From Bacteroidia bacterium (GTDB lineage: Bacteria; Bacteroidota; Bacteroidia; 2-12-FULL-35-15), in contig JAGVJJ010000014.1 in NCBI GenBank assembly GCA_020051175.1, positions 1-64,000 on the forward strand: a stretch of DNA of 64,000 bases. Direction: 5' to 3'. Positions within the stretch are counted from its first letter, which is position 1. Every line of letters begins with the position of its first letter. Below are positions 48,378 to 50,234 of this stretch, one piece after another. Both the position numbers and the translations under genes were made by a program. The notes beneath the pieces are model-generated. The model worked only from the letters and a program-made list of their open reading frames with translations, searched no databases and was not told where the DNA came from.

Positions 48378-48414
48378 CCATGAAAATCAAAAGTAATACT
48401 TTTGATTTTCATGG
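48378..48414. repeat. palindrome flanking DUF4143 gene (downstream copy)
   Basis: ccatgaaaatcaaaagt-aat-acttttgattttcatgg; perfect 17-bp arms. Confidence 0.97.
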
Positions 48415-48417
48415 CAA

Positions 48418-49590
48418 CTATAATCTAGCCAAATCCATTGAAATGAATTCTGAAAGACTTAAAATCACGACATTATCAGCAGCATTATAGCTGTCCCCGG
48501 AAGGAATGAGTACGTAATTTTTATTTGTCTTTAAATCTTCAACACACTGGTAAAAACCTTTGCTCACCTGGGGTGCTGTAGACAACTTTATTTCAATACA
48601 AGCTATCGGCTTCGCTCCTTTTACAAGAACTATATCCGCTTCAGCACCCTGGTGTGTTCGGTAAAAATACATATCCAGGTGAGGCGGCTTCAACTGACGT
48701 ATCTGCTCCAGCACGAAACCCTCCCATGATGGACCAATAGCCGGATGCCCGGCAAGTTCGTCCATATCTGCCGTTTTCACCAATGTGTGCAGAATGCCCG
48801 AATCACGAATGTATATCTTAGGCGCCTTTACCAACCGCTTTTTTGAATTAAAAAACCAAGGTTGCAAACGCGTAAGCAAGAAAGCTCCTTCCATATATTC
48901 CAGGTACCTGCCAACCGTAGGAGCTGTTACGCCTAACGATTTTGCATAGTTTTCCTTATTCCACACACTCCCATTATTATGGGCCAGCATACTCCAGAAA
49001 TTACGAATGATTACAGCCGAAAACTCCGTTCCAAAAAGCTCACTCATATCCTTTTCCGTATAGGATTTAATCAGGCTATTGTACCAATCCTGCGAAGCGT
49101 GGTTTTGTTTCAGTTTTAAAGCTACCGGAAAACCACCTTTAAACCATAATACATCCTGTTTTATTCGACTTTTTAGGGCTTCGGCCAGGTTAATACCTCC
49201 CATATCCAAATAAGCTATTCGTCCTGCCAAGGATTCAGATACCCCTTTTATCAGGTGTGGTGACGATGAACCCAGTAATAAAAAGCGGGCTGGCTTGCGG
49301 TCAATATCAATTAAGGCTCTTAACAGAGCAAACAGTTTGGGCATCCGCTGCACCTCATCAATAATGATAAGCTTGTCCTTATTTTTCAGCAAATAGCTCT
49401 CAGCATCATTTTGTAAACGGTTGAAATGGCTTTCCAGTTCCAGATCCAGGTACAATGTCTGCTTTTTCGACTTAGATGCATAAAGTTTTGCAAGTGTAGT
49501 TTTCCCTATTTGCCTTGCCCCAAGCAGGGCTACAGCCGGACTGGTTTTCAACAAGCGGGTCAATTCTGCTATCTCTATTCTTTGTATCAT
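48418..49590 (-). CDS. ATP-binding protein, AAA_14/DUF4143 family (start taken at MIQRIEIAEL)
   Basis: 'AVALLGARQIGKTTLAKLYASKSKKQTLYLDLE', 'LIIIDEVQRMPKLFALLRALID', 'ARFLLLGSSSPHLIKGVSESLAGRIAYLDMGG', C-terminal DUF4143 'TPQGAEADIVL'-type nuclease-like region ('THQGAEADIVLVKGAKPIACIEIKLS'). Confidence 0.95.
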   Translation of the reverse strand: MIQRIEIAELTRLLKTSPAVALLGARQIGKTTLAKLYASKSKKQTLYLDLELESHFNRLQNDAESYLLKNKDKLIIIDEVQRMPKLFALLRALIDIDRKPARFLLLGSSSPHLIKGVSESLAGRIAYLDMGGINLAEALKSRIKQDVLWFKGGFPVALKLKQNHASQDWYNSLIKSYTEKDMSELFGTEFSAVIIRNFWSMLAHNNGSVWNKENYAKSLGVTAPTVGRYLEYMEGAFLLTRLQPWFFNSKKRLVKAPKIYIRDSGILHTLVKTADMDELAGHPAIGPSWEGFVLEQIRQLKPPHLDMYFYRTHQGAEADIVLVKGAKPIACIEIKLSTAPQVSKGFYQCVEDLKTNKNYVLIPSGDSYNAADNVVILSLSEFISMDLARL

Positions 49591-49604
49591 ACTACAAAGA
49601 TACA

Positions 49605-49655
49605 AATTTTACCATGAAAATCAAAAGTTACACTTTTGATTTTCATGGTAAAATT
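49605..49655. repeat. palindrome flanking DUF4143 gene (upstream copy)
   Basis: aattttaccatgaaaatcaaaagt-tac-acttttgattttcatggtaaaatt; perfect 24-bp arms. Confidence 0.97.
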
Positions 49656-49658
49656 AAT

Positions 49659-50234
49659 TTAGAATTTCAGCAATTCTTCATACACTTCCCTTACAGGGAG
49701 TCCCATTACATTGAAATAAGTGCCTTCTATCTTCTCTACAGCTATATAGCCAATCCACTCCTGCGCACCATAGGCACCAGCTTTATCATAAGGATTATAA
49801 TTGGTAATATAATAGTCTATTTCTTCCTGTGACAATACTTTGAAATAAACATCGGTTTGCGCATAGAACGACTTCTCTTTGTGCTTTGACTTTAAGCACA
49901 CTCCCGTATATACCTGATGCTTTTTGCCAGATAACAGTTTCAGCATGCGCACAGCATCCTCGTAATTTTCGGGCTTATTCAATACCTGATCCTCAATCCA
50001 TACAACCGTATCCGCTGTAATAACAATTGTATCGTCCGCTAAGTCTTCTTCAAAAGCATCCGCCTTTTTTTTGCACAGGTATAGTGGTATTTCCTGGGCT
50101 TTTAAGGTCTCTGGAAAACTCTCATCCACATCTTTGGTATGTACTTCAAAGTTCAGTCCCAGCTCCTTCAGTAAATACTGCCTTCTTGGCGATTTTGAAG
50201 CCAGTATGATTTTGTTTTTATTCAGCTCTTTCAT
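49659..50234 (-). CDS. maf: Maf family nucleotide pyrophosphatase (start MKELNKNKIILASKSPRR)
   Basis: 'IILASKSPRRQYLLKELGL', 'VITADTVVWIED', 'YDKAGAYGAQEW'. Confidence 0.94.
   Translation of the reverse strand: MKELNKNKIILASKSPRRQYLLKELGLNFEVHTKDVDESFPETLKAQEIPLYLCKKKADAFEEDLADDTIVITADTVVWIEDQVLNKPENYEDAVRMLKLLSGKKHQVYTGVCLKSKHKEKSFYAQTDVYFKVLSQEEIDYYITNYNPYDKAGAYGAQEWIGYIAVEKIEGTYFNVMGLPVREVYEELLKF

Follow-up and report, generated by a model that had tools for sequence, protein, structure and literature searches.

Palindromes flanking a PDC-S01 (AAA_14-DUF4143) gene of a Bacteroidia bacterium as probable recognition sites of its own product

Why should a single gene carry the same palindrome at each of its ends? 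The question is raised by a locus in the 64,000-nt window analyzed in this study (positions 1 to 64,000 of contig JAGVJJ010000014.1, assembly GCA_020051175.1, from a Bacteroidia bacterium), in which a gene for an ATPase with a DUF4143 domain, of the PDC-S01 family, is placed between maf and mtaB, not within another gene, and is bracketed by two copies of a 37-bp palindrome. The best-supported inference of this analysis is that a protein of the window type recognizes its own palindrome, a reading for which the covariation between protein residues and palindrome bases provides good support.

The palindrome pair at the maf-mtaB locus

Perfect palindromes on both sides of the gene, with arms of 24 bp in the upstream copy, had been reported in a first-pass annotation of the window sequence; their positions and arms were confirmed, and both copies contain the 37-bp core CCATGAAAATCAAAAGT-N3-ACTTTTGATTTTCATGG (Table 1). 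The coordinates also bear out that each copy lies 3 nt from a stop codon, namely, the TAG of the DUF4143 gene (48418-48420) and the stop codon of maf (49659-49661), respectively. The arm-loop-arm pattern occurred in 0 of 100 dinucleotide shuffles of the window, and no third copy with up to 3 mismatches was found in the source genome (G000; assembly of 4.05 Mb, 82% complete). The preferred start codon is the ATG at 49590, which gives a product of 390 amino acids; the alternative TTG start at 49605, taken from a mechanical list of open reading frames (ORFs), would fall inside the palindrome.

The palindrome in the protein family

The palindrome sequence varies by lineage; its 37-bp length and the outer CCnnGnAAAT are kept, and the half-site form CC-n-n-G-n-AAAT-Y-n-AAA is retained across lineages. 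In 76 of the 112 homologs, a 37-bp CC...GG dyad that pairs at 13 or more of its 18 positions overlaps the promoter or is found near the start codon (6 of 336 in shuffles). By a different score, on which the following figure rests, a palindrome score of at least 13 within 100 nt upstream was obtained for 48% of 110 homologs, 0.2% of dinucleotide shuffles, and 0 of 220 intragenic windows. A matching copy follows the stop codon in 22 of 110 loci (approximately 20%), compared with 19 of 1308 cross-locus pairs. The same type of palindrome is also found on plasmids of Alphaproteobacteria, Gammaproteobacteria, and Deinococcota: the half-site form stands directly before the start codon on Rhizobium, Agrobacterium, Sphingomonas, and Thiothrix plasmids, and the palindromes are weaker and 38 bp long in Thermus and Meiothermus and 39 bp long in Moraxella.

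Several variants of this arrangement were observed. A diverged clade (L015, L016, L017, L117, and L124; approximately 30% identity) has a different palindrome, ATGGAATTATTTGGAATC..., which ends at the -7 box, and the common unit of this clade ends at or near the stop codon. At L131, L137, L147, and other loci, the start ATGAT is inside the right palindrome arm, and its mirror ATCAT is in the left arm, outside the gene. Downstream of the DUF4143 gene of G374 (L240; G374:C34:10340-10553), three copies of a palindrome and spacer are arranged in tandem, 88-89 nt apart.

Covariation between protein residues and palindrome bases

In 59 loci whose half-sites could be aligned, each half-site base was compared with the protein columns by mutual information. 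Residue 314 ranks first for half-site bases 3 and 4, residue 313 ranks second for base 6, and the winged-helix residues 223, 213, 224, and 227 stand out for the inner half-site bases, with weaker signals than that of residue 314. Residues 313 and 314 stand just ahead of E317-x-D319, a conserved part of the predicted nuclease site. The pairing of residue 314 with base 3 (Gln or Asn with A, Asp with C, His or Lys with G, and Ala or Thr with T) is chemically sensible. In 83 loci combined, a set for which the test-set dyads were picked by eye and weak ones omitted, Asp goes with C in 17/17, Ala with T in 14/14, Asn with A in 13/13, Gln with A in 12/12, and His with G in 12/12 loci; the conditional entropy of base 3 given residue 314 falls from 1.95 to 0.07 bits, and this residue is the best of 385 columns for base 3 (z = 27, compared with 8 for the next column).

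The unbiased figure comes from prediction. The mapping from residue 314 to base 3 that was trained on the class was applied to loci in the phylum outside that class; among the 12 that satisfied a fixed dyad filter, it was right in 11 (permuted mean of 4.7 and maximum of 10 in 2000 permutations), and the single failure is a protein with Gly-314. For base 6, residue 313 gave the right prediction at 7 of 11 other-class loci (permuted mean, 3.4; maximum, 7), which indicates a looser relation. In a separate plasmid set, the residue 314 rule agrees in most lineages and fails in L186, L203, and L239. Because the residue-base covariation is this strong, the window-type protein probably recognizes its own palindrome, and the first-pass suggestion that the palindromes are binding sites for the protein itself gains strong support at the level of sequence.

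Predicted structure and conserved residues

The window protein matches AAA_14 (E = 4e-27) and DUF4143 (E = 7e-39) in Pfam, with an overlapping match to AAA_22, and matches PDC-S01 profiles of PADLOC (up to E = 8e-84). The AlphaFold2 model is confident (predicted local distance difference test score, pLDDT = 94.3; predicted template modeling score, pTM = 0.92). The best solved relatives found with Foldseek are the archaeal AAA+ ATPases SSO1545 (PDB accession number 2fna; E = 6e-7) and PABY2304 (PDB accession number 2qen; E = 1e-6), followed by RuvB and ORC-like AAA+ proteins. The model resembles the structures of SSO1545 and PABY2304 (template modeling score, TM = 0.47-0.54), yet the sequence identity is only approximately 15%; to our knowledge, no DNA site is known for either protein. 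The Walker B motif of the window protein is D78-E79, which shares with Walker A a near-invariance among 73-107 homologs. In 107 homologs, G29, K30, D78, E79, E317, and K335 are conserved in 100%, D319 in 99%, and E333 in 98%. Since the Walker and PD-(D/E)XK residues are essentially invariant, the sequences suggest that the protein is an active ATPase and nuclease.

Table 1. Features of the DUF4143 locus, with positions in the window
Feature	Position	Strand	Remarks
Downstream palindrome	48378-48414	.	Sequence CCATGAAAATCAAAAGTAATACTTTTGATTTTCATGG; second copy of the 37-bp site, 3 nt beyond the DUF4143 stop codon
Gene for AAA_14 ATPase - winged-helix - DUF4143 (PD-(D/E)XK-like) protein, PADLOC PDC-S01	48418..49590	-	390 amino acids; ORF, Pfam, PADLOC, AlphaFold2
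Predicted PD-(D/E)XK active site, E317-x-D319 ... E333-x-K335	48586..48642	-	E290 upstream; conservation in homologs
Codons 313-314 (His-Gln), putative base-reading residues	48649..48654	-	314 with half-site base 3; 313 with base 6
Winged-helix recognition helix, residues 223-235	48886..48924	-	Residues 223, 224, and 227 covary with inner half-site bases 11-13 and 16
Walker A, residues 24-32, GARQIGKTT	49495..49521	-	Invariant or nearly so in 73-107 homologs
-7 promoter element, TATCTTTG	49595..49602	-	Between upstream palindrome and start codon
Upstream palindrome	49605-49655	.	Perfect 24-bp arms; same 37-bp dyad type upstream of 76/112 homologs
Conserved 37-bp core of upstream palindrome	49612-49648	.	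CCATGAAAATCAAAAGT-N3-ACTTTTGATTTTCATGG
-33 promoter element, TTTG	49622..49625	-	Inside right arm of upstream palindrome; TTTG-N19-TATCTTTG

Occurrence of the palindrome in related genomes

The relatives surveyed comprise 36 genomes of the genus and 395 genomes of the class (430 in addition to G000), and up to 3 mismatches were allowed. The palindrome is present in 4 of the 36 genus genomes (G000, G030, G022, and G002). In G030, it is found at both ends of a gene that is 82% identical to the window gene, and in G022 it lies upstream of a gene that is 84% identical and occupies the same maf-mtaB locus; the downstream copy in G022 is decayed. G002 has a single palindrome without a DUF4143 gene. 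In the class, the palindrome occurs besides the window only at the DUF4143 genes of G276 and G336. The first-pass annotation had proposed such a search: apart from the one solitary site in G002, it returned DUF4143 genes only (G000, G022, G030, G276, and G336). Many unrelated loci bearing the palindrome did not turn up across the genus and class, and the same-locus ortholog in G022 retains both copies, the downstream one in decayed form. Both outcomes favor the first-pass reading and support the view that the palindromes are part of the DUF4143 locus type itself.

A loose 37-bp pattern gave 41 sites in the 395 class genomes, compared with 4 for the reversed-pattern control; this pattern was learned partly from the same loci, and the informative part of the result is the scarcity of sites elsewhere. 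The 41 sites divide cleanly into 30 palindromic sites and 11 nonpalindromic chance matches, and of the former, 24 accompany intact DUF4143 genes, 1 a frameshifted gene, and 1 the remnant of a gene; the other 4 stand alone. Solitary palindromes of the 37-bp type without an adjoining DUF4143 gene are L234, L235, L237, L238, and L034/L241 (the G002 site); at L237, a DUF4143 homolog is approximately 1.5 kb away. Solitary palindromes could be scars, targets, or relics.

Other origins of the palindromes were considered and rejected. The first-pass idea of elements like repetitive extragenic palindromes (REPs), moved with the gene, did not hold, as each gene lineage has its own palindrome sequence; dispersal of the REP kind is ruled out by the two copies in G000, both of which are at the gene, and by the relatives, in which the palindrome is likewise undispersed. 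An ancestral terminator of maf is also ruled out, since most maf loci of the genus lack the palindrome and G030 carries it elsewhere. A second homolog at the position of the downstream copy was found only in L135, so an explanation of this copy as the relic of a second gene is not general.

Boundaries of the unit and its presence in relatives

Copies of the L003 type at different loci can be aligned only from approximately -76..-63 relative to the start codon to approximately +41..+67 past the stop codon, which are the outer edges of the palindromes; beyond the palindrome-gene-palindrome segment, these copies have little in common. The same-locus pair of G000 and G022 can be aligned well past the palindromes. 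For the other clades, similarity likewise starts at the palindrome on the left and stops on the right at either the stop codon or the downstream palindrome. Because the clades without a downstream copy end at the stop codon, the second palindrome is not essential to the unit everywhere. The G030 unit sits between pyrF and a DUF2851 gene, and the orthologous junction is short and free of the palindrome in several other species of the genus. The same unit is thus found at different loci with abrupt common boundaries (the edges of the L003 clade), and the G030 unit is missing from orthologous junctions; these boundaries and this presence/absence pattern support movement of the palindrome-gene-palindrome unit from one locus to another. 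The first-pass annotation had also proposed a search for empty sites between mtaB and maf: neither the DUF4143 gene nor the palindrome is present there in G027 and G029, the palindrome alone is present in G002, and an exact strain-level empty site was not found.

The Agrobacterium, Rhizobium, Moraxella, and Thermus plasmids contain shared segments and an internally deleted copy (L193), with no clean empty site among them. A test of joined flanking ORFs for gene-interrupting insertions gave no convincing case; a single candidate, L122, is flanked by palindromes on each side. Two Moraxella bovis plasmids (L203 and L295) share a 96.5% identical segment in two backbones, which runs from 361 nt before the start codon to the DUF4143 stop codon. 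On the Agrobacterium/Rhizobium plasmids (L188, L189, and L193-L201), a variable hot spot downstream of a conserved site-specific integrase holds DUF4143, Fic, or toxin-antitoxin genes, depending on the strain. As judged by eye from the translations, the L042 unit (MENF01000176.1) has an apparent Cas9 fragment on one side and a Cas1 gene on the other, with an apparent Y1-transposase-like gene adjoining it, and the L006 unit adjoins an apparent Cas1 gene.

Promoter geometry

The TTTG-N19-TATCTTTG arrangement upstream of the window gene is one that we take to fit the Bacteroidota promoter consensus. Of 61 loci that have the palindrome upstream, 44 carry a TAnnTTTG box no more than 60 nt from the start codon, and 11 have the full TTTG-N18..20-TAnnTTTG. 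The palindrome centers, judged from the listed values, group near -19, -30, -40, and -50 from the start codon, in steps of approximately one helical turn. The upstream palindrome is therefore placed over the predicted core promoter in the manner of an operator, and because of this overlap, autorepression by binding to it is likely.

Proposed explanation and alternatives

We consider it probable that the locus is a one-gene cassette whose AAA+/nuclease protein recognizes the palindromes at its own ends, with the upstream palindrome serving as an operator. The cassette would consist of a gene for an AAA+ ATPase/winged-helix/PD-(D/E)XK-type nuclease and one cognate 37-bp palindrome per end. The fixed length of the dyad makes recognition by a symmetric oligomer of the protein probable, in which the inner part of each half-site would be read by the winged helix and the outer part by residues 313-314, which lie next to the nuclease active site. 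Because these outer-part readers adjoin the active site, the nuclease would thereby be positioned near the outer ends of the site. Binding to the upstream copy would most likely repress transcription of the gene itself, and the palindrome pair would mark the ends of the unit that is moved between loci, with the ATPase/nuclease acting on the palindromes to mobilize or copy the cassette. Cutting at the palindromes to mobilize the unit is put forward as a hypothesis, for which the main support is the proximity of the base-reading residue to the active site. A role of the palindromes as recombination sites, also suggested in the first pass, is likewise hypothetical. Autorepression, cleavage, and self-mobilization are inferred.

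Several observations weigh against this explanation. Cutting of its own repeated sites would be toxic unless controlled. Strict per-branch tests of cochange for single residue-base pairs are weaker (P = 0.004-0.01); against this weakness, all protein columns share one phylogeny, and none approaches residue 314. Approximately 80% of the homologs have no matching downstream copy, and the right boundary there is the stop codon. The boundaries on the Rhizobium, Agrobacterium, Moraxella, and Thermus plasmids coincide only partly with the palindrome: the left boundaries are at -361 (Moraxella) and -85 (Rhizobium), and the right boundary is at or near the stop codon. Comparison of the relatives gave no empty site at the strain level in which the junctions were exact or a target duplication was present, and the G002 palindrome may represent a scar, a target, or a relic, with flanks too diverged for more than a weak alignment.

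The strongest competing explanation is autoregulation alone, perhaps of a defense gene: the palindrome is an operator over the promoter, its downstream counterpart acts as a terminator or, through looping, as a second operator, and spread is by ordinary horizontal transfer and recombination in which the palindromes have no role. The operator-like position over the -33/-7 region in steps of about one helical turn, the better preservation of the upstream than the downstream copy in G022, and the presence of the upstream copy alone in many homologs all agree with such plain autoregulation, which we nevertheless regard as somewhat unlikely, because by itself it leaves unexplained the matched downstream copies in approximately 20% of loci, the fact that homology ends, on either side, at the outer palindrome edge, and the tracking of the site by residues beside the nuclease active site in addition to the winged helix. 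An unlikely role is that of a phage defense gene whose palindrome is a self-regulatory or sensing site and whose product cuts invading DNA with related sites or cruciforms. Such a role is compatible with palindrome recognition and with the PADLOC match to PDC-S01, which is among the commonest defense candidates of prokaryotes and has ATPase and PD-(D/E)XK domains (PMC12988326); the embedding evidence that nominated PDC-S01 could equally come from a mobile gene, however, and 37-bp sites of such specificity are rare away from the DUF4143 gene.

Both copies are also predicted to form stable RNA hairpins just past stop codons (-28.6 and -22.9 kcal/mol; z = -10 and -8, respectively), as would be expected of bidirectional transcription terminators that flank the gene by coincidence. 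Terminators, however, require no identity of sequence between the two ends, no constant length of 37 bp, no CCnnGnAAAT conserved across phyla, and no residue-base code shared with the neighboring protein, and no Rfam family matched above threshold (the hairpin matches were subthreshold only), so this reading is disfavored as very improbable. Most improbable of all is a nonautonomous palindrome-ended unit moved in trans by a Y1 transposase of the IS200 or REP-associated tyrosine transposase (RAYT) type. Its palindromic ends would recall IS200 and REP anatomy, and the related L042 unit does adjoin an apparent Y1-transposase-like gene, but no such gene was seen at the other inspected loci, and the palindrome tracks the DUF4143 protein itself and is not dispersed as REPs are.

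Returning to the cassette whose protein recognizes its own ends, we tentatively extend it to a proposal that may well not hold, namely, that PDC-S01, one of the most abundant "defense" genes of prokaryotes, is a self-mobilizing single-gene element of a new kind, whose AAA+/winged-helix/PD-(D/E)XK enzyme recognizes and processes lineage-specific 37-bp palindromes at both of its ends by means of a near one-residue-one-base code, which would prevent interference between coexisting copies. Should the unit be mobile and act on its own ends, many defense counts would have to be revised, and one-gene elements would gain a new kind. If the protein is only an autoregulated nuclease, the code still provides a nuclease domain that reads palindromes and has natural variants for each of the four bases. 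The probable DNA target and the apparently base-choosing residue make the PDC-S01 family testable from sequence, by binding, cutting, and swapped specificity.

Comparison with known systems

IS200/IS605 elements consist of one gene with a palindrome at each end, the upstream one being near the start signals. The window unit likewise is a one-gene unit with a palindrome near each end; it differs from these elements in its protein, for which Pfam and AlphaFold2/Foldseek indicate an AAA+/winged-helix/PD-(D/E)XK architecture instead of an HUH Y1 transposase, and the unit gives no sign of single-strand transposition. The resemblance to REP/RAYT systems lies in palindromes that are cognate to a nearby gene, and the difference is that G000 contains two copies, both at the gene. 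Homing endonuclease genes are similar in that a nuclease gene has a product that may recognize a site related to its own flanks, as the solitary G002 site recalls; in contrast to them, the window gene is outside any conserved gene or intron, and the site flanks the gene on both sides.

The closest counterpart is PDC-S01 itself (AAA_14 and DUF4143; COG1373), with the same ATPase and PD-(D/E)XK architecture and an unvalidated role in defense. In a 2026 survey, PDC-S01 is the fourth most common defense annotation across prokaryotes, with no validated function, and validation is pending for most such candidates (PMC12988326). The first-pass statement that these genes have no agreed function is right, but the family is already listed as an unvalidated phage defense candidate (PADLOC; PMC12988326). 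A text search of the main text of the survey found no mention of palindromes (PMC12988326), and the cognate site and recognition code of PDC-S01 appear to be undescribed in the literature searched. The window protein has the AAA_14 and DUF4143 domains, the PADLOC profile match, and intact Walker A/B and catalytic residues that place it within this family.
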